DNA from: Kordiimonas laminariae
Lineage (GTDB): Bacteria; Pseudomonadota; Alphaproteobacteria; Sphingomonadales; Kordiimonadaceae
Assembly: GCF_023008165.1 (NCBI RefSeq)
Contig: NZ_JAKQZA010000006.1
Span: 1-64,000, forward strand
Direction of reading: 5' to 3'
DNA length: 64,000 bases
Position 1 is the stretch's first letter, and each line of letters starts with the position of its first letter. The notes under the pieces are model-generated. The model worked only from the letters and a program-made list of their open reading frames with translations. It was not told where the DNA came from and ran no database searches. A program made the position numbers and the translations under genes. Below are positions 48,461-64,000 of the stretch, in pieces.

Positions 48461-50134
48461 TTAGTTGTTGTAGCGAGCGCTGCGGAACCCGTTCGTAATC
48501 GGGTAACGGCGATCTCGGCCATAATTCTTACGCGTAATTTTTACACCCGGAGGTGCTTGACGCCTTTTATACTCGGCGATGTACAGCAGGTGCTCGATCC
48601 TTGCAACCTCTGATGCATCGTGCCCACGCGCAATAACATCTGCAACGGACATTTCTTCATCGACAAGACACCTGAGCATATCGTCCAATTCTTCATAGGG
48701 AGGAAGGCTATCTTCATCCTTCTGGTCTTCCCTTAGTTCAGCTGTAGGTGGCTTAGTGATGATGTTTTCCGGAATAACTTCCCCGCCCGGGCCAAACGCT
48801 CCCACAGGAACATTTTCATTCCGCCAGCACGAAAGCGCGAATACATCCAGTTTATACACATCCTTGAGGGCGTTATAGCCACCGCACATATCACCGTAGA
48901 GCGTGGCATAACCAACAGACAACTCGGATTTATTGCCTGTTGTCAGTACCATCTTACCAAACTTGTTGGATACAGACATAAGAATAAGCCCACGCAGGCG
49001 TGACTGAATATTCTCTTCTGTTGTATCCGCTTCAGTACCAGCAAACACACCACCTAGCATGTTATCGAAGGCGTCAACGCCCTCTTTAATGGCGATAGTA
49101 TCGTAGATCGCACCTAGAGCCTGAGCGCATTTTTCAGCATCTCCAACACTTTCACCGGTTGTGTATTTAGACGGCATCATAATACAGTGCACTTTATCAG
49201 CGCCTAATGCATCAACCGCAACCGCAGCCGAAAGTGCACTATCAATGCCGCCAGACATACCAAGCACAACGCCAGGAAAGCGGTTTTTGTTAACATAGTC
49301 CCTCAGGCCCAACATCATCGCCTGATACATAGAAGCCATTCGGTCTGGGATTTCAGCTTGAAATTCTGTTTCACAGGTAAACTTACCATCTACTTTCTGC
49401 CAAACGGTATTCACCCCACCTTCGGCCCATGAAACCATCTGCACAGGCACACTACCATCTGCGGCGATCACATAACTTGCACCGTCAAAAACAAGCTCAT
49501 CCTGTCCGCAAATCTGGTTACAGAACACTAGCGGCAAACCTGTTTCTTTAACACGAGCAAGTGCATGCTCCTGACGTTCCGGATGTTTATCCAGCTCAAA
49601 AGGGCTGCATGTTGGCACAAGAAGGATTTCTGCTCCTCGCGCTTTCAACCCTTCAGCCACCGCAGTGAACCACATATCTTCGCAGATCATTACACCAAGT
49701 TTATGGCCTCTGAATTCCATCGGTGAAGGGATTGGCCCCTCTTCGAAAACCCGTTTTTCGTCAAACACACCGTAGTTTGGTAGCTCATGCTTGAAACGAA
49801 TTTCTTTGACCTCCCCACTTTCAAGTAAGAAAGATGCATTTCTAAGAGCTTCACCATCATGCCAAGGCGCGCCAACAATCAAGCCCGGTGCATTATCACC
49901 AGCTGTAATTTCAGCAAGACCTTCAATCGCATGCTTGGATGCGCGAGCAAAGAATGGCTTCAGCACCAAATCTTCAAGCGGATATCCCGTTACTGAAAGC
50001 TCTGGTGTAAGCACTAGGTCAGCGCCATCAGCCACTGCATTTGCATAAGCTTCAGCGATCTTTTCGCAATTTGCCTGAATAGCCCCAACCGTTTGGTTAA
50101 GCTGTGCAATATATATGGAAAGCGTATCTGTCAT
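48461..50134 (-). CDS. nadE: glutamine-dependent NAD+ synthase
   Basis: Last step of NAD+ synthesis, amidating nicotinate adenine dinucleotide. 557 residues: N-terminal nitrilase-type glutaminase (about 1-260; TPELSVTGYPLEDL, FKHELPNYGVFDE, ICEDMW with catalytic Cys), then the ATP pyrophosphatase domain with GMSGGIDSAL. Complements the NAD(P)HX repair gene at the left end of the window, though unlinked. Confidence 0.96.
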   Translation of the reverse strand: MTDTLSIYIAQLNQTVGAIQANCEKIAEAYANAVADGADLVLTPELSVTGYPLEDLVLKPFFARASKHAIEGLAEITAGDNAPGLIVGAPWHDGEALRNASFLLESGEVKEIRFKHELPNYGVFDEKRVFEEGPIPSPMEFRGHKLGVMICEDMWFTAVAEGLKARGAEILLVPTCSPFELDKHPERQEHALARVKETGLPLVFCNQICGQDELVFDGASYVIAADGSVPVQMVSWAEGGVNTVWQKVDGKFTCETEFQAEIPDRMASMYQAMMLGLRDYVNKNRFPGVVLGMSGGIDSALSAAVAVDALGADKVHCIMMPSKYTTGESVGDAEKCAQALGAIYDTIAIKEGVDAFDNMLGGVFAGTEADTTEENIQSRLRGLILMSVSNKFGKMVLTTGNKSELSVGYATLYGDMCGGYNALKDVYKLDVFALSCWRNENVPVGAFGPGGEVIPENIITKPPTAELREDQKDEDSLPPYEELDDMLRCLVDEEMSVADVIARGHDASEVARIEHLLYIAEYKRRQAPPGVKITRKNYGRDRRYPITNGFRSARYNN

Positions 50135-50175
50135 GCCTGCCTTTTACCGTGCTTCACGCGTGTGTACAAGTTAAA

Positions 50176-50212
50176 GAAAAAGGGCGAGAACCAATCTATC
50201 TGGCCTCGCCCT
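50176..50212 (-). terminator. intrinsic terminator after the DAHP synthase gene
   Basis: Eight-base-pair stem GGGCGAG-type (AGGGCGAG/CTCGCCCT) with a 16-base loop that has internal pairing, followed by TTTTTCTTT on the reverse strand, 24 bases after the stop. Confidence 0.85.
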
Positions 50213-50235
50213 CTTTAAAGAGATTTAGCTAAGAG

Positions 50236-51609
50236 TTAAGCAGCGTTTTCTGCTGCTAGCGCCTCTCTTTCCTCTTTAAGAGCTTCGGCAATCTGGAATG
50301 CAAGTTCAATTGATTGACTTGCATTCAGGCGCGGGTCGCAGTGAGTGTGGTAGCGAGATGAAAGCCCATCCTCTGTCACAGCGATCGCGCCGCCGGTACA
50401 CTCTGTTACATCACGGCCTGTAAGCTCCAGGTGGATACCGCCAGCATATGTGCCTTCGGCACGATGGCAGGCAAACACCTGCTTTACCTCTTTAAGCACA
50501 CGTTCGAACGGACGAGTTTTGTAGCCTGATGACGCTTTCACCGTGTTACCGTGCATCGGATCACACGACCAAACAACCTTGCGGCCCTCTTCTTTCACGC
50601 GGCGTAGTAGGCGCGGCAGGTATTCTTCCACTTTATCAGCACCAAAACGACTGATAAGCGTTAGGCGCCCAGCCTCATTATTCGGATTGAGGATATCAAT
50701 CAAACGAATAAGATCATCAGGATCCGTCGTTGGCCCCACCTTTGAAGCAATCGGGTTACCAATACCGCGCAAAAATTCAAGATGCGCGCCATCTGTCTGG
50801 CGTGTGCGGTCACCAACCCAAAGCATGTGAGCGGAGGTATCGTACCATTCGCCTGATGTAGAATCGACGCGCGTTAGAGCCTGTTCGTATCCAAGAAGTA
50901 ATGCCTCATGAGATGTGTAGAATTTAGTACCCTGAAGCTGACGAACATCGTTCGGGTTCACGCCACACGCTTCCATAAAGTTAAGTGCTTCGCCTATACG
51001 GTCAGCAAGCTCGGCATATTTAGCACCAGCACCACTTTCCGATACGAAATCGAGGTTCCAGCGGTGTACATCCATAAGGTTAGCGTAACCGCCTTGTGCA
51101 AACGCTCTAAGAAGATTCAGCGTCGCGGCAGACTGACTGTAAGCGCGCAGCATACGGCGTGGGTCTGGCACACGGGATTCTGCATCAAAATTAATACCAT
51201 TAATAATATCACCACGGTAGCTTGGTAGCTCTACACCATCGACAGTTTCAGTATCAGCGGAGCGTGGTTTCGCAAACTGACCAGCAAGACGGCCAACTTT
51301 TACAACAGGGCTACTTGCTGCATATGTAAGCACCACAGCCATCTGCAAAAGCACACGGAATGTGTCGCGGATATTATTCGGATGAAACTCGCGGAAACTC
51401 TCTGCACAATCGCCGCCTTGCAACAAAAATGCGCGGCCTTCAGCAACTTCACCAAGAGACGCTTTCAGATCACGTGCTTCACCAGCAAATACGAGCGGTG
51501 GATAGCTTGCAAGTTCTGTTTCTACTTCCTGCAATACTTTTTTATCTGGATAATCTGGCACCTGTATAATCGGGCGTGTTTTCCAGCTTTCAGGGCTCCA
51601 CTCACTCAT
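50236..51609 (-). CDS. class II 3-deoxy-7-phosphoheptulonate synthase
   Basis: First step of the shikimate pathway, of the plant/AroAII type. 457 residues starting [28 protein letters not shown] with the metal cysteine, [17 protein letters not shown]-like [14 protein letters not shown] and CDPMHGNT are present. The ATG at 51609 has AGAGG upstream; a GTG lies three bases earlier. Its own terminator separates it from nadE. Confidence 0.95.
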
Positions 51610-51826
51610 CACTTTGACCTCTATAAACTCTCAGGGGCTTGTATTATTATTTCAACATTGCATCATTTTTAGCAATTAAGTTGCAATGTTAAATCATGCA
51701 TTTCTAACAATAGCAAGCGCAAAAACTCTATTACTATAATCGATGTTTGGCCTTTATAACAAATGTCTATATTAAGTGGTCATAACATTTCTAACCTTTG
51801 TATTCAGAAGAGCTTGATACTTACAT

Positions 51827-52498
51827 ATGAAAGTATTTTCCGTTCAAAAAATCCTCTTTGACCTTGATGGCACACTGGTAGATACGGCTGCTGATTTGCA
51901 CGCTGCAACAAACCACGCGCTTAGGATAGCAAGCCGGCCAGATGTGCCTCTTTCTTCCGTTCGACATTTAGTTGGCTTTGGCTCACTCCGGCTTATCAAA
52001 GAAGGGCTAAAGCTCACTGGTGGCTCGGAAGGTATTGACAGCACGAATCTTCAAAAAGAGTTTTTAGATTTCTATACCGATAATATAGCCGTACATTCAG
52101 CCCCCTACCCCTATTGTGTGCAAACACTCACCGACCTTAAGGGAAAGGGCTTTGAATTAGCTGTCTGTACGAACAAACCAGAACGAATGGCTAAATCCTT
52201 ACTATCGGAATTGGATTTATTAAAATACTTTGGCGCTATTGTGGGCGGTGACAGTCTGCCATACAAAAAGCCCGATGCACGCCATTTGCAGGATACAGCG
52301 ACCCTTCTAACCGGCACTGGCCCCACTCTTATGGTTGGAGATGCATCACCTGATATATTAGGTGCCAAAGCAGCAAATATGCCCGTTGTTGCAGTAAGCT
52401 ATGGTTTTGCAGATACAGATATCAAAGCGCTCGAGCCAGATATGATTATTGAATCTCTGGCAATCTTACCGGATGTGGTTTCGCTCCAATCCGTTTAA
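51827..52498 (+). CDS. gph: phosphoglycolate phosphatase-like HAD hydrolase
   Basis: HAD-superfamily phosphatase of 223 residues. Motif I LFDLDGTLVDT with both catalytic aspartates, motif II VCTNK, motif III KKPD and motif IV VGDASPDILGAKAA are complete, with a small helical cap between. Phosphoglycolate is the likely substrate by family, but related HAD enzymes vary. The last 53 bases overlap the convergent nucleotidyltransferase gene, so the two C-termini share DNA. Confidence 0.87.
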   Translation: MKVFSVQKILFDLDGTLVDTAADLHAATNHALRIASRPDVPLSSVRHLVGFGSLRLIKEGLKLTGGSEGIDSTNLQKEFLDFYTDNIAVHSAPYPYCVQTLTDLKGKGFELAVCTNKPERMAKSLLSELDLLKYFGAIVGGDSLPYKKPDARHLQDTATLLTGTGPTLMVGDASPDILGAKAANMPVVAVSYGFADTDIKALEPDMIIESLAILPDVVSLQSV

Positions 52499-53492
52499 AG
52501 GCTTTCACAACTAGATGCGGTAATAGCTTGTATAGAGGCATCCGAAGCAGATGAGAACGCAGGTAAAGCATCGCTTTAGTGGATTTACGAGTTTGGTTGC
52601 CATTCAACCTATCGACAAACCAATCAAGAACAGTTTGAGACGGTACACCACCAAGTTCTTTCAAAAGAACATCTGCTCGCTCGCTATCCAGAACCTTAGC
52701 AAGAAGCCCGAATGCGTAAGCACACGGCTTTTCAGCACCGATCATCTTTATGCGCTCTACTAGCGCCAAACCCTCATCAGGATTTAGATCGTTCAATAAC
52801 AAATTAAGTTCAATCAAACTACGGACAGGCGTTTCGAATGTTCCATCAGCGAAAGCATGGATAGCTGAATGAATGATCAGGTCCTGCGGCGACAATACTT
52901 TTAGAAAACTACCCACCAGAGGCATAGCTGCCTCAAAAAAGGGCTTATTATTTATATTTAGTCTGGACGTTGGTGGAAGAAGGCGGTGGTGAACATCCAA
53001 AATTGTGAACCGAGCTGAATGCCTGAAAGGCGGCAATTCATGCATATGCTTGCGGTAATAATTCTGATCATACTCTTCAGCCGCACTTTCATCAAAATTC
53101 CAACCGGCAGCAAGCAGAATTTCTTCAGCCTCTTTAACATTCTGCTCCGGTACAAGAATATCAAGATCGCTTACTCGCCGACCTTTCGCAGCCTCCAGCC
53201 CCAAAGCGACATAAGCCCCACCTTTTAAAAGGATTGGCTGAATACCCGAACCAACAAAAGCCCGCTCAAGACGCTCCTTTTCATTATGAAGCATATGATG
53301 ATCATAAGCGGCGCGTGTTACGCCGTTTTCAAGGACCGACTGCATTTTTTCGCTAACCATATCGCCCGCAACCAAAGCAAGGCGGCCAAACACATGATTA
53401 ACATCCGCAAACTCAAGCAGCAGAGCGCGCTCAGTTACATTTTCAGGAATGGGTTCAAGGCCTGCTATAACACGTGTAAAATAACGGCTCAT
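52446..53492 (-). CDS. nucleotidyltransferase family protein (HPr-rel-A cassette)
   Basis: 348 residues. An N-terminal helical part (1-80) leads to the nucleotidyltransferase core: LLKGGAYVALGL with Lys90-Gly91, then RRVSDLDILVPE with Asp109 and Asp111 forming the metal-binding DxD, and a C-terminal helical region. This matches the PF14907-type nucleotidyltransferases found beside HprK-related kinases and in some phosphorylated lasso-peptide clusters. It would transfer a nucleotide or sugar-phosphate to a substrate, here not known. The start overlaps the kinase stop by four bases. Confidence 0.85.
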   Translation of the reverse strand: MSRYFTRVIAGLEPIPENVTERALLLEFADVNHVFGRLALVAGDMVSEKMQSVLENGVTRAAYDHHMLHNEKERLERAFVGSGIQPILLKGGAYVALGLEAAKGRRVSDLDILVPEQNVKEAEEILLAAGWNFDESAAEEYDQNYYRKHMHELPPFRHSARFTILDVHHRLLPPTSRLNINNKPFFEAAMPLVGSFLKVLSPQDLIIHSAIHAFADGTFETPVRSLIELNLLLNDLNPDEGLALVERIKMIGAEKPCAYAFGLLAKVLDSERADVLLKELGGVPSQTVLDWFVDRLNGNQTRKSTKAMLYLRSHLLRMPLYKLLPHLVVKAFKRIGAKPHPVRLPEIQ

Positions 53493-54418
53493 AACCCTGC
53501 CTCCCCAGCAAAGTCACGCACCATCTGCATACATTCCTCCGTATCACCATAAGTGATATCATAGGCTTCAGCGCCCACAACCATATCAGTAAGTGCTTTA
53601 TAGGCTGCTTCACCAAGTAGCTTGTAGTTAGTGGCGGATTCAATGAGCCGCATAATCGTTTCAGCTTTAGTAAGCTTTTTAGCACGCGGACTTATATTCT
53701 CTGCAAAGCTAGGAAACAGAATTAACTTAACAGGCGCAGGAACATTCGCTTGTTCAATATCAGAACGTCGGGCTCGTCTGTAAGCAATTTCACCTTTGGG
53801 GGTATTCATAATAGATTTAGAAACCCATTCGGCACCAACCATATCTCTGACAACAGAAATTGAATTCCCCTTAAGTGAGACAGGCCTTGGGTAGGGATTA
53901 ATTTCTGCTTTATCCAATGAAAGCAAACCAAACTCATCCGAAAACAAGCGGTAACCTTCCTGCATCAAGGCTGTTGTAAGTGTGCTTTTTCCGCTGCCCG
54001 ATGCACCAGAAATCAAAACACCGCCATTTTCATTGGCAACCGCACCAGCATGAAATGTTAAAAACCTACAACACTTCAGCGCAACAGAAAGATTCATCCC
54101 CATTTCTAAACTGAGTGGTGCCATTTTTTTGGGGAGTGGTACAGCAGGTACTTTAAATCCCGGATCAGGAATAACCTGTGGGCGCAAATACTTCCTGAAC
54201 ACATTCGGCGGTCTGACATTCAGAGCAATATCAGTTACTTCCTGCAACTCGAGGTTAGCAGGTACATCGCGGTACACATCAAAAAGAAAATCGACCAATT
54301 CAGGTGATTGCGAGGCGAGCCTAGCGGAGAATGCGCCGAGAATTAGTTCAAACTGCCCTTCCTTCAGAGAAGAAAACACATCAGCTCTATTTAAGTCGGA
54401 GATAAGCGTTTCAGGCAT
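53489..54418 (-). CDS. HPr-kinase-related protein (HprK-related kinase A)
   Basis: 309 residues. The kinase core lies at about 115-240: HAGAVANENGGVLISGASGSGKSTLT has His123 and Walker A (138-146), and LFSDEFGLL has Asp161-Glu162 in the position of the HPr kinase DD/DE catalytic pair. The K4-like NPYPRPVSLK follows. A separate N-terminal domain (1-100) is unlike HprK. No HPr, PTS or ntr genes are nearby, so the target is probably not HPr. It overlaps the PqqD-like gene by eight bases and the nucleotidyltransferase by four. Confidence 0.87.
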   Translation of the reverse strand: MPETLISDLNRADVFSSLKEGQFELILGAFSARLASQSPELVDFLFDVYRDVPANLELQEVTDIALNVRPPNVFRKYLRPQVIPDPGFKVPAVPLPKKMAPLSLEMGMNLSVALKCCRFLTFHAGAVANENGGVLISGASGSGKSTLTTALMQEGYRLFSDEFGLLSLDKAEINPYPRPVSLKGNSISVVRDMVGAEWVSKSIMNTPKGEIAYRRARRSDIEQANVPAPVKLILFPSFAENISPRAKKLTKAETIMRLIESATNYKLLGEAAYKALTDMVVGAEAYDITYGDTEECMQMVRDFAGEAGL

Positions 54419-54722
54419 TGCTATATTCTTTTGGCTTCAGTAATCCAACCTCATCTAATTGAACAACAGAGCTTTCAAATAACTCAGAGGGGCAATCTTC
54501 TGCATCCAGCTCAAGATCATTAAGAACTCGATCATATAAGTCCTTCATATTCCCTGGCTTATCAACTGCATTTTTGACAATAGACGCGGTAAGGAAATTG
54601 AGGAGATGCGTTGTTCCCGCAGATTTACAGAAAACAAAATATACATCCTCAAACTGCCGGATAACAAAATCATCAGCTTCCGCAATCCAAATTGTCTGGG
54701 AAGTATATGGGCCTACTGCCAT
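54411..54722 (-). CDS. PqqD family protein (RiPP-recognition fold)
   Basis: 103 residues with the PqqD/RRE layout: short beta strands (IWIAEADDFVIRQFEDVYFVFCKSAGTTHLLN), then helices with the conserved acid-rich and VVQLDEVGLLKP end. PqqD-like proteins bind the leader peptide of a ribosomally made precursor and present it to a modifying enzyme. The kinase overlaps it directly, and a 189-residue candidate substrate is encoded 38 bases upstream. GAG eight bases before the ATG is a weak ribosome-binding site. Recognised by layout and neighbours, not by strong motif. Confidence 0.8.
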   Translation of the reverse strand: MAVGPYTSQTIWIAEADDFVIRQFEDVYFVFCKSAGTTHLLNFLTASIVKNAVDKPGNMKDLYDRVLNDLELDAEDCPSELFESSVVQLDEVGLLKPKEYSNA

Positions 54723-54751
54723 TATAAAAACTCAAATTGTGGAGATAGGTT

Positions 54752-54776
54752 GAATTACCCCTAACCGAGGTAATTC
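54752..54776 (-). terminator. stem-loop between the candidate substrate gene and the PqqD-like gene
   Basis: Perfect eight-base-pair stem GAATTACC/GGTAATTC with a nine-base loop, overlapping the stop codon of the upstream gene. No T run follows. It could partly terminate transcription, so that the substrate mRNA exceeds that of the enzymes, or act as a processing site. Confidence 0.5.
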
Positions 54777-55330
54777 AAAATTGACACGATACAAGAAATA
54801 CCCGGCCAGCTGGAATTCGGGCTAAGATCTGCCTGTCTTGCCGAAAGTGCGACATACAAACTAGCTGCATCGGACCCTAAGTTCCAAGAACCGTTAACGT
54901 CTACATAATCACCGGGTGTAATCAATTGGTAAGCGTCAAGCGAGTATAGTTCATAACAACTACTTGAAGAATCGCCATCACCGTCGCCATCACCATCACC
55001 TGAACAGCTACCTGGTCTGAATTGACTTGGCGCGCTGCTAGAAGGGAAGGAAAAGTCGGCGTTGTCTTTAAAGTTGTTGATATCTTTACTTTTATACTTG
55101 CCTTTTTTCTTTTTAAGGTTGCCATTACCAACCCACGCAGCCCCGTCATCATCAACGAGAATACGAATACTTCCAGGCAATGTAATGACACATTGAAGCT
55201 GGGAAATGAGTGGACCACCTGAAGCGCCTGCTCCAAGTGTTAAAACCATAGGCATACCAGCAGCGCCCAATCGCAAAAGCTGCCGACGCTGATCTCTGAA
55301 CTTAGTTTTGCTATCTTCAGTACTACTCAT
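54761..55330 (-). CDS. exported protein with Tat-like leader and Gly-Asp/Ser tract, candidate substrate of the kinase cassette
   Basis: 189 residues of no family known to me. The N-terminus has a twin-arginine-like signal: QRRQLLRLGAAGMPMVLTLG (residues 14-33). Four cysteines at 47, 109, 125 and 180. The middle is basic (KKKKGKYKSKD) and then low-complexity: five Gly-Asp units at 111-120 followed by SSSSC. The C-terminal part is rich in Ser, Asp and Asn. Its position first in the same transcription unit as PqqD-like, kinase and nucleotidyltransferase genes suggests it is the modified substrate, with serines as acceptors; this is inference. It could alternatively be an unrelated exported protein. 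Confidence 0.7.
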   Translation of the reverse strand: MSSTEDSKTKFRDQRRQLLRLGAAGMPMVLTLGAGASGGPLISQLQCVITLPGSIRILVDDDGAAWVGNGNLKKKKGKYKSKDINNFKDNADFSFPSSSAPSQFRPGSCSGDGDGDGDGDSSSSCYELYSLDAYQLITPGDYVDVNGSWNLGSDAASLYVALSARQADLSPNSSWPGISCIVSILNYLG

Positions 55331-55594
55331 AAGACCTCAACATCTCCAGAACTGAATATTACTCACCCCAAACAATTTTATTAAACAATGTTTTATGCTT
55401 TAGGTAAAGCGTGATTTCACGTTTATTTACGCATATACGCATGTAAAAATTGCAATTTTACTACATTTTTTTTATCAGAGTTCAGTTTTCAGGGTGAAAG
55501 CTTCATAAAAACGCAATACATTTGTTTTTAAATCCGCGCAAATTTCATATCTTGGCGTTATCGCTAATCAGTATAAACTTAGGCAACATTAATC

Positions 55595-56869
55595 ATGTCC
55601 GAGTCCTTTAAAGAATATCAAAGTTTACTCACCGAACGCGCTATTATTATTGTTATCGCTATTACTTTGATATTTCTTTGGTCTGTGAACCAAATCAGCT
55701 TTATTGCTGTTGCTGTAACAACAAGCATTGCTGCTGGTCTTCTTGTTCAGCTCGAAATAAAGCGCCGTATGGAGACCCTTCGAAGTAAACGTGTCGCCGA
55801 AACTGAAAAACGAAAGAAAGCAAAGCAAGGCGCACAATCGCTAAGAGCAAACGCGCTCAATGGTGTGCCTTCAGCTATTTTACTCATTGATTCAAATCAC
55901 AAGATTATCTTTGCCAACAAAACGGCGAAGGAACTTCTTGGCGACGGCATCGTTGATAACGATGCATTCCTTTACCTGCGTCAATCCAACTTTGTAACAG
56001 CGCTTGATAAGGTGTTAACAGGTGGAAAAAAAGCAAACGATCTAATCCGCTACACGACAAGCCAAGACCGTAGTTTTGATGTTACTGTCGCTGCTGTTAC
56101 CAGTACCGAACCAGGCAAAGAAAAGCAGCGGCAAGCAATGGTTTTCTTCTACGAAGTTACAAGTTTGTTACGCACTGAACAAATGCGTGTCGATTTTGTT
56201 GCAAATGCTAGCCATGAACTACGTACTCCGCTCACATCCATTACCGGCTTTATCGAAACTCTGCTAGGGCCTGCAGCTGAAGATAAAACCGCACAAGATA
56301 GATTTCTTGGTATCATGCAGCGTGAAGCGGATAGGATGATCCGCCTTATTGATGACCTTTTATCACTTTCAAAAATTGAAATGTCACGGCATGTAAGCCC
56401 AGACAGCGATGTTGATCTCAGCAACATTCTGCAAACAACCGCCACGACACTCTCAAGGAAGGCTGCGAAACGAAACATAGAGTTTAATCTAGATATTTCA
56501 GAGAATTTACAAAATGTCAGAGCAGATGCTGACCAAATAACACAAGTATTGATGAATCTGGTTGGCAATGCAGCTAAATACGCCGATCAAGACACCCGAG
56601 TTCATATCTCGGCTTTTCCAACACCAAACAACCGCCACATGCAGGTTACTATAAGAGACGAAGGCCCTGGCATTTCCCCAGAACACCTGGGCCGGTTAAC
56701 TGAACGTTTTTACCGTGTAGATACAGCTCGTTCTCGAAAAATGGGTGGTACTGGCCTTGGGCTGGCAATTGTAAAACATATTCTTCTACGTCATTCATCT
56801 CAGCTGGATATTAAAAGCAAGATGGGTGAAGGCACCTCTTTTAGTTTCAAACTACCCATCGCTAAGTAA
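55595..56869 (+). CDS. phoR: phosphate regulon sensor histidine kinase
   Basis: Inner-membrane kinase that controls PhoB according to phosphate supply through PstSCAB and PhoU. 424 residues: two adjacent membrane spans (about 14-50), a charged linker, a PAS domain (about 85-190), a dimerisation helix with the phosphorylated histidine in ANASHELRTPLTSITGF, and an ATPase domain with NAAKYA, DEGPGI and GGTGLGLAI. Typical PhoR architecture. First gene of the forward regulon cluster, followed by the Pho-box region. Confidence 0.92.
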   Translation: MSESFKEYQSLLTERAIIIVIAITLIFLWSVNQISFIAVAVTTSIAAGLLVQLEIKRRMETLRSKRVAETEKRKKAKQGAQSLRANALNGVPSAILLIDSNHKIIFANKTAKELLGDGIVDNDAFLYLRQSNFVTALDKVLTGGKKANDLIRYTTSQDRSFDVTVAAVTSTEPGKEKQRQAMVFFYEVTSLLRTEQMRVDFVANASHELRTPLTSITGFIETLLGPAAEDKTAQDRFLGIMQREADRMIRLIDDLLSLSKIEMSRHVSPDSDVDLSNILQTTATTLSRKAAKRNIEFNLDISENLQNVRADADQITQVLMNLVGNAAKYADQDTRVHISAFPTPNNRHMQVTIRDEGPGISPEHLGRLTERFYRVDTARSRKMGGTGLGLAIVKHILLRHSSQLDIKSKMGEGTSFSFKLPIAK

Positions 56870-56885
56870 TACTTTAGAGTTTACA

Positions 56886-56940
56886 CTGTTATAAATTTGA
56901 AACAAATCTGTAATAATTACAGTCTTATTCCGTTCATTAA
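56886..56940 (+). promoter_or_regulatory. Pho box array upstream of pstS
   Basis: Five consecutive 11-base units, each a seven-base half-site plus an AT-rich four-base spacer: CTGTTAT-AAAT, TTGAAAC-AAAT, CTGTAAT-AATT, ACAGTCT-TATT and CCGTTCA-TTAA. Units 1 and 3 fit the PhoB CTGTCAT consensus best. Units 3 and 4 also read as a CTGTAAT/ATTACAG palindrome. Eleven-base spacing is the mark of tandem PhoB binding, and the array ends about 95 bases before the pstS start. Confidence 0.65.
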
Positions 56941-57033
56941 GATGTAACAGAGGCGCTGTATCCGTCTTTGAAACTTAATAGTATTCAAGATCGAAATACT
57001 AAAAACCCTAATAAAACCAAGGTAATTAGGATA

Positions 57034-58113
57034 ATGATGACGAATTTAAAACTTATGGCAGTTGCTTTAATAAGCACTGTAATATTGTCATCAGAAGCCT
57101 TGGCCCAATCACGCAATCAGATCCGTGTTGTTGGTTCCAGTACAGTTTTTCCTTTTTCCACAGCAGTTGCAGAGGAATTTGGTCGTACATCTTCTTATAA
57201 AACACCAATTGTTGAAGCCACAGGTACTGGTGGCGGTTTTAAACTTTTTTGCAATGGCATTGGTACCAAATACCCAGATATTACAAATGCGTCACGGGCT
57301 ATAAAACCAAGTGAGAGATCCCTATGCGCCGCACGCGGTGTAACAGAAGTTGCGGAACTAAAAATAGGATATGATGGCATCGTACTTGCTCAAAAAAAGC
57401 AAACGCCAGCCCTTTCAATCACTGTAAGAGAACTTTATCTAGCACTTGCATCGCGCATTCCTGCTGCCGGTTCTGACGGTAGAATAGAAGATCTTATAGA
57501 AAACCCATATGTTTTGTGGAGCGATATAAACCCCGCCCTACCAAAACGTAAAATTTCTGTTATGGGCCCTCCTCCGACGTCTGGTACAAGAGACGCCTTT
57601 AATGAACTTGCTATACAATCAGGCTGTAAAACATTCCCGGAAATGGCAGCTCTGGAAACTACAAACCCACACTTATTCCATGCCCATTGTCAAAGTATTC
57701 GGGAAGACGGTGTGTATATTGAAGCTGGCGAAAACGATAATTTAATCGTTCAAAAGCTTTTAACTGACAGTGATACAATCGGTATTTTTGGATACAGCTT
57801 TCTCGACCAAAATGCCGATATGGTTGATGCCGTTTCTATAGCAACCAATAATGGCCAGTATCTGGAGCCCACCTTTGAGTCTATCTCTACTGGCGAATAT
57901 CCAATTTCTCGTTCGCTTTATATATATATCAAAAAAGCTCACATAGGTATTATTCCCGGCATCAAAGACTTTATTGAGGAATTCACCAGTGACAGAGCGG
58001 CAGGCGAATTAGGGTATTTAGCAGAAAGAGGATTAGTACCTCTGCTCGACGAAGAACGAGACGCTGCCAGCGCCCAAGCGAAAAACCTTGTTTCGCTGGA
58101 GCTTCAGCCATGA
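57034..58113 (+). CDS. pstS: phosphate ABC transporter substrate-binding protein
   Basis: Periplasmic phosphate-binding protein. 359 residues: signal peptide (about 1-25, ending in LAQ) and then IRVVGSSTVFPFSTAVAEEF, the phosphate-binding GSSTVFP of the PstS/PtsS family, with TGTGGGFKLFC, ITNASRAIK and GTRDAF further on. The ATG at 57034 (or 57037) is preceded by AGGA; the longest frame starts with TTG at 56968. First gene of the pst operon, 46 bases before pstC. Confidence 0.93.
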   Translation: MMTNLKLMAVALISTVILSSEALAQSRNQIRVVGSSTVFPFSTAVAEEFGRTSSYKTPIVEATGTGGGFKLFCNGIGTKYPDITNASRAIKPSERSLCAARGVTEVAELKIGYDGIVLAQKKQTPALSITVRELYLALASRIPAAGSDGRIEDLIENPYVLWSDINPALPKRKISVMGPPPTSGTRDAFNELAIQSGCKTFPEMAALETTNPHLFHAHCQSIREDGVYIEAGENDNLIVQKLLTDSDTIGIFGYSFLDQNADMVDAVSIATNNGQYLEPTFESISTGEYPISRSLYIYIKKAHIGIIPGIKDFIEEFTSDRAAGELGYLAERGLVPLLDEERDAASAQAKNLVSLELQP

Positions 58114-58159
58114 TCCAAAATCACATAGCTACCTCAGGAACACACAAAGGAGTTGTTAA

Positions 58160-59539
58160 ATGACAACTTCTGCAGTGTTCGTTATTTCAGTAATCATTGC
58201 ACTTATTGCATTCACAAACGTAAGGCAACGAGCTCTTGTTTCTGTAGAGGGTGATCCATCACATCTGCATTCATTACCTCGTCACTATGGTTATTATGCG
58301 GCGACATGCGTGTTCCTGCCCGCCTTCTTTGTTTTTCTAGCTTGGCTGATCTTCGGAAAAAATGTTGTAGAGGGCCTTATTATCTCTGGCCTTCCGGAAG
58401 ATTTTTTCAATCAATACCAACAGCAAACTCAGCTTTTAATGAACCGTATCCGTTTAGTAGTAGAAAATGGGTCGGCAACAGAAACCAGTAGCGAAATTAT
58501 TGAAGCCGCTAATCAGTTTCATACTCTTTACACTAAAGGTATCTGGGCCACATTTATACTATCTGTCGCGGTAGGCTGCGCAGGCTGGTATTACGCACTT
58601 ACAAGAACAAAACCATCTTTTCGCGCCCGAAATATTTTTGAGCAATACCTTAGTATTGCTCTGATTATCAGCTCAGTTATCGCGATCATGGCAACACTGG
58701 GCATTGTTCTCTCTCTACTCTTCGAAAGCGTAAGGTTTTTCCAGGAAGTGCCAATTACAGACTTTCTTTTGGGTACTAAATGGAGTCCACAAACAGCCAT
58801 TAGAGCAGATCAAGTTGCATCCTCTGGTGCCTTTGGCGCATTACCTCTTTTTGCAGGTACCATCCTGATTACGGTTTTAGCAATGCTGGTTGCTGGGCCA
58901 ATTGGCCTATTTTCAGCTATATACCTTACGCAGTACGCTTCAGTGCGCACTCGTAAAATAGCCAAGCCTACGCTTGAGATATTGGCCGGCATTCCGACCG
59001 TAGTGTACGGCTTTTTTGCCGCTCTCACGATCTCTCCCCTCTTTCGGGAAATAGGAGAAGTTTTCGGTTTTGACATAGCAAGTGAAAGTGCACTTGTAGC
59101 TGGTTTTGTTATGGGCATTATGATTATCCCATTCGTATCATCACTTTCTGACGATGCTATCACTGCGGTCCCTATCAGTCTCAAGGAAGGTTCAATGGCA
59201 CTCGGTGCAACTCCTTCAGAAACTATTACAAAGGTCATATTGCCTGCCGCCCTTCCAGGGATCGCTGGTGCGTTTCTTTTAGCGGTTAGTCGAGCTATCG
59301 GTGAAACCATGATTGTAGTTATGGCCGCTGGTATGCAGCCTAATCTAACAGCCAACCCATTTGAAGCTGTCACGACAGTTACAGTGCAAATTGTAGCTAC
59401 CCTCACCGGCGACCAGGAATTCGATAGCACCAAAACTCTTTCTGCTTTTGCGCTTGGCCTGACACTGTTCGTGATGACAATGCTTTTAAACGTAGTTGCT
59501 CTCAGAATTGTACGAAAATACCGCGAGGTATATGAATAA
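58160..59539 (+). CDS. pstC: phosphate ABC transporter permease PstC
   Basis: 459 residues. It has an extra N-terminal membrane part (two spans and a periplasmic segment) before the BPD_transp_1 permease core; the EAA loop is seen in ALGATPSETITKVILPAALPGIAGAFL. This long form is normal for alphaproteobacterial PstC. AAAGGAG precedes the ATG. pstA begins two bases after the stop. Confidence 0.94.
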   Translation: MTTSAVFVISVIIALIAFTNVRQRALVSVEGDPSHLHSLPRHYGYYAATCVFLPAFFVFLAWLIFGKNVVEGLIISGLPEDFFNQYQQQTQLLMNRIRLVVENGSATETSSEIIEAANQFHTLYTKGIWATFILSVAVGCAGWYYALTRTKPSFRARNIFEQYLSIALIISSVIAIMATLGIVLSLLFESVRFFQEVPITDFLLGTKWSPQTAIRADQVASSGAFGALPLFAGTILITVLAMLVAGPIGLFSAIYLTQYASVRTRKIAKPTLEILAGIPTVVYGFFAALTISPLFREIGEVFGFDIASESALVAGFVMGIMIIPFVSSLSDDAITAVPISLKEGSMALGATPSETITKVILPAALPGIAGAFLLAVSRAIGETMIVVMAAGMQPNLTANPFEAVTTVTVQIVATLTGDQEFDSTKTLSAFALGLTLFVMTMLLNVVALRIVRKYREVYE

Positions 59540-59541
59540 CC

Positions 59542-60858
59542 ATGTCAGATGATTTGAATATAAAGCCAACAGATTGGCAATCTCCTGAGATGGTAAGGCA
59601 CACACAAATGCGGAACCGCCGGGAAAAACGTTTTAAACTCTTTGGTTTATCTGCTGTTATTCTAGCAGCTTCTTTCCTGTTTTTGCTCCTTGGCAAAATT
59701 ACACTCGACGCTGCACCGGGTTTCCTACAAACCTCCATTGAAGTTGATATCAATTTTGATAAAGCGGTCATTGGTGATCCAAGGCAGATGGGCAGAGATG
59801 CCTTTATTGAAAATGTACGGCGCACCAATATGCTGAGGCTGGTGCAAGCTTCTATGGATATCTATTTCTCCGAAGTAACTGACCGGCGCGATAGGCGTAG
59901 GCTACTCCGGCTCTTCAGTGCTGGCGCAAGAGATCAGTTGAGGAATATGCTACTCGCAGACCCAATGATTGCGGGTACATCAAAACGAGTTTCACTGCTG
60001 GCCTCTGATGATATTGATCAGGTTATCAAAGGGCATACCGATATAAGCCTTCCTGAGTTACAGCGAAAGGTGAAAAACAAAGAGCTCTCCTGGCTTCAAA
60101 AATTTGAAGACGACGACAGAGTCTCACTGCATTTTCATTCACTGTTTTTCACAAGCGGAGATTCACGTGACCCTGAGCTCTCAGGCATTTGGGGCGCCGC
60201 AGTTGGCTCAGCTCTCACTCTGTTTATAACGCTTATTATAGCGTTCCCTGTAGGTGTACTTTCCGCCATTTATCTGGAAGAGTTTGCGCCGAAAAATCGA
60301 TTTACCGACTTCATTGAAATCAACATCAACAACTTGGCGGCCGTTCCTTCTATCGTATTCGGCTTACTGGGTTTAGCTGTTTTTCTCGGCACGATGGGTT
60401 TACCACGCTCAGCCCCACTCGTTGGTGGTATGACACTAGCGCTAATGACACTACCAACAATTATTATTGCATCACGTGCATCGATCAAAGCGGTGCCACC
60501 TTCTATTCGCGATGCTGCAATGGGGTTAGGTGCATCGCCTATGCAGGTAGTTTTCCACCATGTGCTACCTCTTGCCTTTCCTGGCATTCTAACTGGCACA
60601 ATTATTGGCATGGCACAGGCCCTAGGGGAAACCGCACCGCTTTTGATGATTGGTATGGTAGCCTTTATTGTTGATATTCCCGCAAGTTTCACTGATGCAG
60701 CAACTGCCCTGCCTGTACAAATTTACCTCTGGGCTGATAGCCCCGAGCGCGCTTTTGTAGAAAAAACGTCAGCAGCCATATTAGTATTACTTACTTTCCT
60801 GATTGTTATGAACGCGTTAGCAATTTGGTTACGCCAGAAATTTGAGCAGGACTGGTAA
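59542..60858 (+). CDS. pstA: phosphate ABC transporter permease PstA
   Basis: 438 residues. After a cytosolic head (basic [12 protein letters not shown]) and one span comes a long periplasmic insert (about 60-210), then the permease core with EAA loop [26 protein letters not shown]. Longer than E. coli PstA, in common with other alphaproteobacteria. Translation is probably coupled with pstC and pstB (one-base gap). Confidence 0.93.
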
Positions 60859-60859
60859 G

Positions 60860-61660
60860 ATGCAGCAAAGCATGACAGAGTTTAAAAACATGACAGAACA
60901 AGCAGTCCCTAAAATGTCTGCCCGTGATATTCACGTTCGTTACGGTGACAACCATGCTGTTAAAGGTATTTCACTAGACTTGCACCTTAATGAAATCACT
61001 TCGCTGATCGGCCCTTCAGGATGCGGGAAATCAACATTTCTACGCTGTTTAAACCGGATGAATGACTCTGTCGCAGGCTGTAAGGTTACAGGGCAGATTC
61101 TACTCGATAATAAAAATATTTATGATCAAAACATCGATGTTGTTCAACTTCGCGCAAGAGTGGGAATGGTATTCCAAAAACCTAACCCGTTCCCTAAATC
61201 TATTTACGATAACGTAGCATATGGCCCACGTATTCACGGACTTGCCCACAACAGAACCGATCTTGATGAAATCGTAGAAACATCGCTTGAACGTGCAGGC
61301 TTGTGGCAAGAAGTGAAAGACCGCATGGATAGCCCAGGCACTGCTCTATCAGGTGGTCAGCAACAACGCTTGTGTATTGCGAGAGCCATTGCAGTGAACC
61401 CAGAAGTAATTTTGATGGATGAGCCATGTTCAGCGCTTGATCCAATTGCAACTGCTAAAGTTGAAACCCTGATGGATGAGCTAAAAAGCGAATATGCCAT
61501 TGTGATTGTTACTCACAGCATGCAGCAAGCTGCTCGAATTTCACAAAAAACAGCATTCTTCCATTTAGGTGAACTGGTAGAGCAAGGCGATACCACACAA
61601 ATATTTACGGCCCCACGAAACGAAAAAACCCGAGATTATATAACGGGACGTTTCGGTTAA
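60860..61660 (+). CDS. pstB: phosphate ABC transporter ATP-binding protein
   Basis: ATPase of the Pst phosphate importer, also part of PhoR signalling. 266 residues: GPSGCGKST (Walker A), Q-loop [10 protein letters not shown] typical of PstB, signature [15 protein letters not shown] and Walker [14 protein letters not shown]. The ATG at 60860 (AGGA upstream) is one base after the pstA stop; a TTG frame from 60842 is rejected. Confidence 0.96.
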
Positions 61661-61672
61661 AGGATACTGCAT

Positions 61673-62380
61673 ATGTCAGACCCACACATTCTCTCCGCAT
61701 ATGACGAAGAGCTAAAAGAATTAAGAAGTGTTGTCAGCCGAATGGGTGGTATGGCAATTGATCAGTTGTTGGCGGCAATGCAGGCTCTCCGCGAAGTGAA
61801 TACCGACGAAGCAGAGACAGTTCTGAAAAACGATCTGCTACTAGATAAACTGGAACTTCATGCAGAAAAGACAGCTATCGGTGTTTTTGCCCGACGTGCG
61901 CCCGTTGCAGATGATCTTCGTGAGGTCGTATCCTCGATCAAAATGACAACTATGATTGAGCGCATGGGGGATTATGCAAAAAACATCTCTCGAAGAACGC
62001 TTGATATAGCAGAATGTTCACCAGTGGTTATGCCACAAACGCTTGATAACATGGCGGATGTAGCACACCGTATGATTGAAGACATTATGGATGCATACGT
62101 GCATCGTAATGCCGATGTTGCCGTGGATGTATGGGAACGCGGCGAAACGCTCGATAATATGCACAATGCTGCATACAGGCAGATTTTGGCACGCATGATG
62201 GAAGTGCCAGACCATATCAATGCCTACACACATTATTTGATGATTGCAAAAAATCTGGAACGTATTGGCGACCAAGCCACAAGCATTGCTGAACAGATTT
62301 ACTACGCAATCACTGGAGAAATTCTAGAGGACATACGTCCAGTGGAAGAAGAACAACCTGCCACAGAAGCAGGCTTTTAA
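61673..62380 (+). CDS. phoU: phosphate signalling regulator PhoU
   Basis: 235 residues, two three-helix PhoU repeats: the first around MAIDQLLAAMQAL and the metal-binding segment with ERMGDYAKNISRR, the second ending in NLERIGDQATSIAEQI. PhoU links PstB to PhoR and keeps the regulon off when phosphate is ample. Twelve bases after pstB. Confidence 0.96.
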   Translation: MSDPHILSAYDEELKELRSVVSRMGGMAIDQLLAAMQALREVNTDEAETVLKNDLLLDKLELHAEKTAIGVFARRAPVADDLREVVSSIKMTTMIERMGDYAKNISRRTLDIAECSPVVMPQTLDNMADVAHRMIEDIMDAYVHRNADVAVDVWERGETLDNMHNAAYRQILARMMEVPDHINAYTHYLMIAKNLERIGDQATSIAEQIYYAITGEILEDIRPVEEEQPATEAGF

Positions 62381-62412
62381 CATCTACGACAGGGTTACTA
62401 AAGGAACTGGCT

Positions 62413-63102
62413 GTGAAGACACGAATTTTATTAGTTGAAGATGACGAAAACATCACTGAACTGGTGCGCTATAACCTAGAGCGTGCTGGCTATATTGTTG
62501 ATTGCGTAGCAGATGGTGAAGAAGGCTTGTACAAAGCCACTGAAGAAACACCAGATGTAATTCTACTGGATTGGATGCTGCCTAACCTTTCAGGTCTGGA
62601 GATTTGCCGCCAGTTGCGCCGTAATTCAACAACCGCAAACGTACCTATCATCATGCTAACGGCAAGAGCAGATGAACCTGATCGTATTCGCGGTCTGGAA
62701 ACAGGTGCCGATGACTATATGGTAAAACCATTCTCGCCAAAAGAGCTGGTCGTACGCATTCAGGCAGTTCTGCGCCGTGTTCGCCCTGCCCTTGCTGGTC
62801 ACGAATTACGGTTTGAAGATATTGCGCTTGATAATGTGTCACACCGTGTTACGCGCGGTGATAATGTTATTCACCTTGGTCCCACTGAGTACCGCCTACT
62901 TCGCCATTTTATGGAAAACCCAGGCCGTGTATTCTCGCGTGAACAGCTGCTTGATAGCGTTTGGGGCCGCGATGTGTATGTGGAGCCTAGAACGGTAGAC
63001 GTACATATTCGCCGACTTAGAAAAGCGGTAAACGAAGGTGGTGGTGAAGATTATATTCGCACCGTACGTTCAGCAGGTTATGCGCTTGACGCAAAAAAAT
63101 AG
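62413..63102 (+). CDS. phoB: phosphate regulon response regulator
   Basis: OmpR-type activator binding Pho boxes. 229 residues: receiver domain with ILLVEDDENITELV, phosphorylation site DWMLP and KPFSPKEL, then a winged-helix output domain with GPTEYRLLRHFM and RTVDVHIRRLRK. GTG start with AAGGA upstream. phoB lies at the end of the operon, separated from phoR by the pst genes. Confidence 0.96.
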   Translation: MKTRILLVEDDENITELVRYNLERAGYIVDCVADGEEGLYKATEETPDVILLDWMLPNLSGLEICRQLRRNSTTANVPIIMLTARADEPDRIRGLETGADDYMVKPFSPKELVVRIQAVLRRVRPALAGHELRFEDIALDNVSHRVTRGDNVIHLGPTEYRLLRHFMENPGRVFSREQLLDSVWGRDVYVEPRTVDVHIRRLRKAVNEGGGEDYIRTVRSAGYALDAKK

Positions 63103-63120
63103 GGCTAAACACTTAGCCCT
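63093..63120 (-). terminator. terminator of the asparagine synthetase gene
   Basis: Eight-base-pair stem AGGGCTAA/TTAGCCCT with a four-base loop, followed on the reverse strand by seven Ts. It overlaps both the last codons of phoB and the stop codon of the reverse gene. On the forward strand it has no T run, so termination of phoB transcripts would be weaker. Confidence 0.8.
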
Positions 63121-64000
63121 AAATGTCTTAATGATCGGTCCAGAGTTAAGAGAGACCAGAGCGTTGTATGATGGTCTCTCACCTCTGTGACATGTTCTTC
63201 AATCATTTCTTTGACACCGTTCATATCGATAAGACCGGTATCGGCAAGAGTCTCACTTTTTTCCAAATCCCTCAATTCAGGCAATAATTCATCCCTGAGC
63301 CAGTTTACTGCGGGTACCATGAAACCCTGTTTGCTTCGGTAAAGTGTTTCATTTGGCACAAAACCTTCTAGTGCCTTCTTAAATACGTGCTTCCCCTCAC
63401 CTTCAACAATTCTGGAAGCCGGGTTAATACGCATCGCATATTCGACAAATTTATGATCCAGAATTGGTACCCGCACTTCCAAAGAATGCGCCATACTCGC
63501 TCGGTCAACTTTTGTAAGGATATCACCGGGCAAATACGTTTTCAGGTCGATATATTGAATGGTGGAAAGCTCATCAGCTCCCTTAACCTCGTCAGCAATC
63601 TTAGTAAACAGGTCATGAGGATGGTACCCGGCAAGCTTCTTCTTCATTCTGTCCGTATGAAGACGGTAACGGTCGCGGTCAGGTGTTTTACTAACACTAT
63701 GACAATAGGCCTCAGCAGATGTTCGTGCTAATGCCTCGAATGTAGATTTAGCGCGAAGAAACTGCGGAGCTCTATCCATCTTTGGATAAAGAGTACCAAG
63801 AGGCTTAAAAATAAGCCTTCGAAGGCCAAGTGGTATATGGCCTCTAAGATTTTCTTCCAACATATGAAAACGGTGACGGCGATATCCGGCAAACAATTCA
63901 TCCCCACCATCACCAGATAACGCAACCTTCACTTTTTCCCTCGCCAAACCACACACTCTGTATGTAGGTAACGCCGATAGATCCGCAAAAGGTTCATCAT
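63105..64000 (-). CDS. asparagine synthase, C-terminal part (cut by window edge)
   Basis: Last 298 residues of a glutamine-hydrolysing asparagine synthetase; the gene continues beyond 64000. The synthetase domain has the ATP-binding pyrophosphate loop end ALSGDGGDELFAGYRRHRF, then YLPGDILTKVDRASMAHSLEVRVPILDH and GKHVFKKALEGFVP. Such AsnB-like proteins occur in asparagine synthesis and also in exopolysaccharide/PEP-CTERM loci; the missing N-terminus and left neighbours prevent a choice. The ATG-like internal start at 63956 is a GTG within the domain and not the true start. Confidence 0.88.
   Translation of the reverse strand, partial: DEPFADLSALPTYRVCGLAREKVKVALSGDGGDELFAGYRRHRFHMLEENLRGHIPLGLRRLIFKPLGTLYPKMDRAPQFLRAKSTFEALARTSAEAYCHSVSKTPDRDRYRLHTDRMKKKLAGYHPHDLFTKIADEVKGADELSTIQYIDLKTYLPGDILTKVDRASMAHSLEVRVPILDHKFVEYAMRINPASRIVEGEGKHVFKKALEGFVPNETLYRSKQGFMVPAVNWLRDELLPELRDLEKSETLADTGLIDMNGVKEMIEEHVTEVRDHHTTLWSLLTLDRSLRHLGLSV

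Follow-up and report, generated by a model that had tools for sequence, protein, structure and literature searches.

Introduction

HprK homologues are known from two groups of ribosomally synthesized and post-translationally modified peptides (RiPPs) that resemble the locus described here. In the phosphorylated lasso peptides paeninodin and pseudomycoidin an HprK homologue phosphorylates a C-terminal Ser, with the B1 protein providing the RiPP recognition element (RRE), and the pseudomycoidin nucleotidyltransferase is reported to attach one or two hexose units to the phosphopeptide (PMC8498205). The LPPs (linear polyphosphorylated peptides), according to Popov et al. 2026, are made from precursors with a constant N-terminus and a variable C-terminus and are encoded together with a discrete RRE protein, an HprK-like kinase and a nucleoside triphosphate (NTP) transferase, often beside polysaccharide loci; the LPP kinase puts several phosphates on core Ser3 (PMC13381572). 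These authors call LPPs restricted to Bacillota, and a term search of their text gave no hit for Proteobacteria, Pseudomonadota or twin-arginine (PMC13381572). Here we describe a four-gene cassette located in a 64,000-nucleotide stretch of the Kordiimonas laminariae genome (assembly GCF_023008165.1, contig NZ_JAKQZA010000006.1, positions 1 to 64,000 of the forward strand), referred to below as the window. Three genes encode a PqqD-like protein, an HprK-related kinase and a nucleotidyltransferase, and the fourth encodes a protein with a Tat-like (twin-arginine translocation) leader. Comparison across loci and genomes supports this exported protein as the partner of the three enzymes. We put at about two in three the probability that the four genes would constitute one leader-guided unit for protein modification and export, the biochemical steps of which are proposed below.

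Co-occurrence of the candidate exported protein and the enzymes

The four genes follow one another on the minus strand in the 5' to 3' order substrate, PqqD-like protein, kinase and nucleotidyltransferase (Table 1). The open reading frames (ORFs) were found on one strand as described in the first-pass annotation of this DNA; a 38-base gap follows the substrate gene, and the last three genes overlap by 8 and 4 bases. Homologous cassettes with the same gene order recur in Alpha-, Beta- and Gammaproteobacteria, so the arrangement goes beyond chance. At an E value of 1, neither NCBIfam nor Pfam gave a match to the 189-residue product of the first gene, and a search with this protein and ten distant relatives yielded no Pfam or NCBIfam family above cut-off.

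The comparison was anchored on the kinase and included 136 loci, namely 56 regions chosen by hand for spread and the best 80 of 584 relatives. The 56 regions were drawn from 103 genomes with a strong kinase match (40 + 6 + 57; a few of them cut by contig ends), and four extra regions were taken for further substrate copies. Removal of kinases that are at least 90% identical resulted in a non-redundant set of 125 loci. In 129 of the 136 loci (118 of 125 non-redundant) a leader profile matched the slot that immediately precedes the PqqD-like gene, with a lowest score of 10.4 bits. Outside the slot, four of 22,464 ORFs exceeded 10 bits, and all four are tandem substrate copies. A substrate profile derived from 24 substrates was then applied to 59 relatives, and detected the protein in 38 of the 40 kinase-positive genomes vs none of the 19 kinase-negative genomes. 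The corresponding P value of 1.5e-13 for the two-by-two table is too optimistic because the genomes are related. Gain or loss has nonetheless been repeated, as two genomes of one genus (G046 and G055) differ in both kinase and substrate together. The two kinase-positive genomes missed by the profile (G033 and G058) also belong to one genus, and the slot of G033 (locus L157) contains a divergent version with an RR leader and SCWTS near its end. Four genomes that have no copy in the slot were searched whole, and three of them (G057, G586 and Sphingopyxis panaciterrulae, L206) have an unlinked copy, each with the full leader and the C-terminal motif [ST]CxxS.

Some observations weigh against the pairing. 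The training set of the leader profile consisted of 96 slot sequences, taken from the 104 of 136 loci in which a first, looser leader pattern had found a leader (a few of them false), and the 129 of 136 figure is therefore partly circular. Seven of the 136 loci have no leader match in the slot; among these, L129 has a leader visible by eye, L182 and L204 lie near contig ends, and the remaining four belong to the genomes that were searched whole. In one of these, the Nitrosospira bin (L199), a whole-genome search found no substrate in the slot or elsewhere. With these points taken into account, the counts over loci and genomes show that related exported proteins do neighbour homologous cassettes, and they support the first-pass proposal that the candidate exported protein belongs with this one.

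Relatives of the same genus or family (L119-L122, L004, L006, L009-L011, L013, L016 and L019) have extra divergent substrate copies, in tandem or at a distance, which suggests that one enzyme set serves several substrates. In nine such loci that were examined, the leader pattern was present in eight, comprising ten proteins; nine of these fit the strict C-terminal motif and the tenth has SCIHSA.

Table 1 Features of the cassette and of the adjoining operon start, in window positions.
Feature	Position	Strand	Basis
Candidate substrate, Tat-like leader and core, 189 aa	54761..55330	-	ORF; slot homologues in other kinase loci
Leader, residues 15-37: RRQLLRLGAAGMPMVLTLGAGAS, twin arginine, conserved Pro, hydrophobic stretch	55220..55288	-	Column conservation, RR count
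C-terminal motif S179-C180-I-V-S183, proposed phosphorylation site (Ser183)	54782..54796	-	[ST]CxxS conservation
(GD)5-SSSS-C, residues 111-125, variable linker	54956..55000	-	Unconserved in relatives
PqqD-like protein with predicted RRE fold, 103 aa	54411..54722	-	TIGR04353 sub-cut-off match, AlphaFold2 model, structure comparison
HprK-related kinase A, 309 aa	53489..54418	-	TIGR04352
Nucleotidyltransferase family protein (NTP_transf_5), 348 aa	52446..53492	-	PF14907
Start of the XrtA/PEP-CTERM operon, amidotransferase TIGR03108, running past the window; context, outside the cassette	63105..64000	-	852.6 bits, cut-off 816.9

Leader and core of the candidate substrate

All 118 non-redundant leaders contain RR, and 109 contain RRx[FL]. 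The twin arginine is followed by a mostly hydrophobic stretch, a frequent Pro (43 of 53 in the type A proteins defined below), T-L and an Ala-rich end. A-x-A occurs in 79 of the 118 leaders, and the window protein has AGAS. Tat is the likeliest export route judging from these features, with Sec as a possible alternative. The genome itself encodes TatC (PF00902, 228.6 bits). Tat carries proteins matured in the cytoplasm and thus suits a model in which modification precedes export. Against a Tat signal of the textbook kind, a strict Tat pattern of our own fits only 7 of the 118 leaders, which is why Sec has to be considered; the failures are chiefly due to a charge that falls among the first 14 positions of the hydrophobic stretch (66 of 118) and to residues around RR (40 of 118). 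Run over all ORFs, the generic Tat pattern gave 19 matches, nine of them in the slot, and it is unfit as a control because so few of the substrates pass.

The cores attached to this leader fall into three types. Type A (53 of 118) is marked by a Cys in its N-terminal part and by [ST]CxxS towards the C-terminus, and includes the window protein. Type B (49 of 118), mostly from Beta- and Gammaproteobacteria, has CxxPSGxxSGNxS shortly behind the leader as well as a C-x-G-x-SPGYW stretch. Type N (7 of 118), from Nitrosomonas and kin, ends near ISATAYTSL. The remaining nine of the 118 cores are outside all three types, which counts against the proposed unit. The kinds of core follow the kinase tree, label A changing four times vs 40.4 in shuffles on a quick tree. 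From leader to end the substrates measure 77-272 residues. No fold was assigned to the substrate: its model has a pLDDT of 74, and the best PDB match an E value of 0.57.

Among 24 distant relatives R16, C47, C180 and S183 are invariant. The invariance of C180 and S183 is partly built in, since the pattern by which type A was assigned contains CxxS, and this reduces its value as evidence. C47 was not used in the definition, and the equivalent Cys is present in 53 of 53 type A proteins, free of that bias. Also free of it is the finding that all 37 non-redundant loci from the order of the window, listed by hand according to taxonomy, have [ST]CxxS. In the 52 type A proteins measured, 1-25 residues follow the motif Ser. 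The middle of the protein, rich in Asp, Gly and Ser, varies widely, and the proteins in the sets compared range from 124 to 271 residues. The (GD)5-SSSS-C stretch, which the first-pass annotation correctly located within the 189-residue protein and emphasised, is part of this middle. As a linker of variable length and composition that is unconserved in relatives it is an unlikely target, whereas R16, C47, C180 and S183 are invariant, and it was rejected.

Kinase, nucleotidyltransferase and PqqD-like protein

Searches with family models agree with the HPr-rel-A identity suggested for the cassette in the case of two of its enzymes and place the third near it. The kinase scores 229.2 bits against TIGR04352 (HprK_rel_A; cut-off 200) and the nucleotidyltransferase 135.8 bits against PF14907 (cut-off 31.2). 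The PqqD-like protein scores 30.7 bits against TIGR04353, below the cut-off of 35. The match nonetheless covers positions 1-73 of the 74 of the model with an E value of 4.7e-7, and judged by this alignment the protein is clearly related to the family; the place of its gene and its predicted fold are also as expected for this family.

The kinase contains the expected Walker A sequence (residues 138-146, GASGSGKST) and D161-E162. All 125 non-redundant loci have equivalents of His123, Lys144, Asp161 and Glu162, which correspond to the His, P-loop Lys and acidic pair of HprK; of the two P-loop Gly, one is present in 124 of 125 and the other in all. Each Asp of the nucleotidyltransferase SDLD (SDxD) motif is present in 122 of 124 loci. 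Because the catalytic residues are conserved, both enzymes look active. In comparison with solved HprK structures the kinase profile matches only the surroundings of the P-loop (E 2.9e-4), and a sequence search of solved structures with the nucleotidyltransferase returned no match at E 0.1.

The AlphaFold2 model of the PqqD-like protein has a pLDDT of 83 and the element order of an RRE. Foldseek placed TbiB1 and another lasso B1 protein, both with leader peptides, at the top; the best E value is 6.2e-3 and none is below 1e-3. Alignment by VIA-align resulted in a Z score of 9.5 and a root-mean-square deviation of 3.4 over 88 aligned positions with TbiB1. RiPP enzymes or RRE proteins fill ranks 1-16; the Z scores of other winged-helix proteins go up to 8.0. 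The predicted structure thus supports an RRE fold and agrees with the first-pass assignment, the closest solved structures being RiPP enzymes and RRE proteins.

A PqqD-like gene was recognised directly upstream of the kinase gene in 126 of the 136 loci, and of the ten loci that yielded no PqqD profile match, seven have a small ORF on the same strand that ends just before the kinase. The nucleotidyltransferase gene lies on the strand of the kinase gene in 135 of 136. The Vibrio alfacsensis plasmid pVa1 (L280) carries a type B cassette with no PqqD-like gene listed within 10 kb, in a gene table that is incomplete.

Genomic surroundings

An XrtA/PEP-CTERM exopolysaccharide operon starts ~8 kb from the substrate gene. 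After the amidotransferase it encodes exosortase A, a TIGR03087 glycosyltransferase, a FemAB-like protein, a deacetylase, an ATPase, a tyrosine autokinase, and chain-length and export proteins, and nine of the ten genes scanned there score above NCBIfam cut-offs, the tenth being unassigned. Among the 59 relatives, TIGR03108 is matched over cut-off in 30 of the 40 cassette genomes vs 8 of the 19 others (P 0.02), and in 38 of 40 vs 8 of 19 when weaker or contig-cut matches of ~600 bits and more are included. Both genes are on one contig in 31 cassette genomes; in 27 of these the TIGR03108 and kinase genes are no more than 20 kb apart, 24 of them over cut-off. Distant cassettes adjoin the XrtA-system genes TIGR03087, TIGR03088, TIGR03108, TIGR03019, PrsT (TIGR02917) and TIGR02915, neighbour-gene counts around loci being based on our own score limits. 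In a sample of 398 genomes of the phylum the kinase is present in 61; it occurs in 25 of the 35 genomes with exosortase A over cut-off vs 36 of the 363 lacking it, on the assumption that the draw was identical for the kinase and exosortase A searches.

The association is strong, though not obligatory. Two observations speak against a tie to the exopolysaccharide system. The 36 of 61 kinase-positive genomes without exosortase A over cut-off include 21 that are at least 90% complete, and at the locus on the Vibrio plasmid pVa1 no exopolysaccharide genes are listed within 10 kb, in the same incomplete gene table. Six of those 36 genomes have an exosortase match below cut-off, and nine of ten loci fetched from them have an XrtA-type amidotransferase or glycosyltransferase adjacent, again by our own score limits.

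Between the cassette and this operon lies the pho set phoR-pstSCAB-phoU-phoB (55595-63102), from which the cassette is divergent, with phoR and pstS recognised by sub-cut-off matches. Many loci of the order, and a plasmid of Sphingomonas parapaucimobilis, have a similar layout. A Pho box was sought in the 264 bases that separate phoR from the substrate gene; the best site has 9 of 14 matches to the consensus, no better than background, and was rejected, and the whole window contains no Pho-box-like site with at least 12 of 14 matches.

The 3' end of the nucleotidyltransferase gene overlaps a convergent HAD phosphatase gene by 53 bases (52446-52498). A gene for an HtrA-like serine protease, scored below cut-off, lies near many type B cassettes (L129:5181-5963, L138:5713-6498 and others), and this protease might process or police the product.

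A model for the four genes and its alternatives

In the proposed unit the N-terminal leader would combine a Tat-type signal with a docking element for the PqqD-like RRE protein. The RRE protein would present the precursor to the HprK-like kinase, and a conserved core Ser would be phosphorylated, in the window protein Ser183 of SCxxS; in the type common among Beta- and Gammaproteobacteria, a Ser early in the core would be the probable target. The PF14907 nucleotidyltransferase would then extend the phosphate by a further group; a sugar is the most likely one, by analogy with what is reported for pseudomycoidin. As the leader is proposed to double as the export signal, cytoplasmic modification would precede export. 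The modified protein would leave by Tat with its leader cut near the Ala-rich end, the general signal peptidase of the host standing in for a dedicated one. Outside the cell Cys47 and Cys180 may form a disulfide, and the product would work with the XrtA/PEP-CTERM exopolysaccharide system. Such a unit would extend the logic of HprK, RRE and nucleotidyltransferase from the RiPPs of Bacillota to protein-sized, apparently Tat-exported proteobacterial cores, and would link it to a widespread exopolysaccharide system.

Several other readings share some of this evidence. It is possible, if doubtful, that the pairing holds and the nucleotidyltransferase attaches AMP or UMP directly or at a site other than phosphoserine, with phosphorylation no prerequisite. 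PF14907 is an uncharacterised family with its SDxD site in 122 of 124 loci, and the comparable transferase LppN had no detectable effect in its test host (PMC13381572), a result that also weighs against the proposed unit; on the other side stands the pseudomycoidin nucleotidyltransferase, reported to add hexoses to the phosphorylated peptide and likened here by its description rather than by membership of PF14907 (PMC8498205). That the kinase instead has another cellular protein as its target, or serves phosphate or carbon signalling in the way HprK does by acting on HPr, is quite unlikely; in that case the exported protein would be a co-transcribed output, with the PqqD-like protein proof-reading its export. 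Tat leaders are known to be bound by dedicated chaperones, the kinase is HprK-like, and in many relatives, as in the window, pho genes run divergently from the cassette. However, the exported protein is absent from all 19 kinase-negative relatives and the pairing persists when the genes are unlinked, the window has no Pho-box-like site at the level of 12 of 14 matches, and HPr is not known to need an RRE.

A secreted antimicrobial or signalling RiPP with no association to exopolysaccharide is likewise improbable as the product. The RRE, the leader and the variable core are hallmarks of RiPPs, and some genomes contain several divergent copies, but the proteins are large for this role at 77-272 residues, the annotated neighbours, which cover part of the loci, include no RiPP-type exporter or immunity gene, and XrtA genes adjoin the cassette in many families. 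Last, the exported protein might be unrelated to the enzymes and stay beside them through conserved gene order, given that synteny also preserves the adjacent pho genes. We regard this as very improbable: the pairing is seen in several classes whose flanking genes differ, survives unlinking in three of the four genomes searched, and was missed by the profile in only two of 40 kinase-positive relatives, one of which has a divergent copy.

Returning to the leader-guided unit, a more far-reaching version of it appears rather unlikely. It would define a proteobacterial class of RiPP-like proteins in which one leader is both RRE dock and Tat signal, and a phosphoserine made by the HprK-like kinase and elaborated by the nucleotidyltransferase joins the secreted protein to, or lets it nucleate, the XrtA/PEP-CTERM exopolysaccharide. 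If true, the Ser-phosphate-sugar linkage between protein and polysaccharide would be a new route of matrix assembly. For the NCBI-named, uncharacterised cassette, a concrete candidate substrate, leader and set of residues make the chemistry testable.

Relation to described systems

The locus resembles the LPP system (PMC13381572) in that a precursor whose N-terminus is constant and whose C-terminus varies goes with an RRE, an HprK-like kinase and an NTP transferase, and in its proximity to polysaccharide loci. It differs in its proteobacterial host and protein-sized core, and the leaders are distinct. The LPP leader motif is YxxPxVLxHQxIxFETxxS, whereas here RR...PxVLTL is followed by an Ala-rich end (RR...GAAGMPMVLTL in the window protein). 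The residue three before the Pro is Ala in the window protein, and the 93 of 118 leaders with the Pro motif have one Trp and no Tyr at that place. LPP loci also have an SpI-like peptidase and an MsbA-like exporter, and this pair is absent from the 20 neighbours scanned (48464-63099 and the next ten genes), which are metabolic, pho and XrtA genes. LPP membership was thus rejected on leader motif, peptidase and exporter; by analogy, the cassette would work like an LPP system without being one.

The phosphorylated lasso peptides provide the HprK homologue, nucleotidyltransferase and RRE for comparison, the enzymes being likened by their description (PMC8498205). The window product, unlike these peptides, is a linear protein, and no lasso cyclase or B2 protease was found beside the cassette. 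A lasso cluster was rejected since neither a macrolactam cyclase nor a B2 leader peptidase is found among the same 20 neighbours. The asparagine-synthase-like product of the gene at 63105 is the XrtA amidotransferase and reaches 258 bits with the lasso cyclase model, whose cut-off is 525. The annotated neighbours include no lasso cyclase, in line with the first-pass statement that this is not a lasso cluster. The XrtA/PEP-CTERM system itself has its operon near this and many homologous cassettes, but its gene models do not include the cassette, and its genes occur without it (TIGR03108 in 8 of 19 cassette-free relatives).

The first-pass annotation foresaw much of this, namely the partner substrate, the RRE fold, the HPr-rel-A identity and the non-lasso character; the (GD)5-SSSS-C stretch that it emphasised is not the likely target, and it overlooked the constant leader with cores that vary by clade and the XrtA link. 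Its remark that chemistry and substrate seem uncharacterised agrees with the records, in which the enzymes have NCBI names only and the substrate is 'hypothetical' in two annotated entries. In the open PMC literature no paper was found that names HPr-rel-A, HprK-related kinase, PF14907, TIGR04352/TIGR04353 or an exosortase with PqqD, nor, among the papers listed, one that appears to describe the pairing of substrate and cassette.

The closest counterpart is the HPr-rel-A system (TIGR04352/TIGR04353 and PF14907), which has the same three enzymes in the same order and which NCBI labels in Sphingomonas parapaucimobilis. HPr-rel-A names no substrate, and the upstream gene is a 'hypothetical protein' in the records of Sphingomonas parapaucimobilis and Vibrio alfacsensis. 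These hypothetical proteins have the leader together with a type A signature in the former and a type B signature in the latter. The enzyme trio is therefore known already by its NCBI name, and the pairing of the fourth gene with it as the candidate substrate is new.

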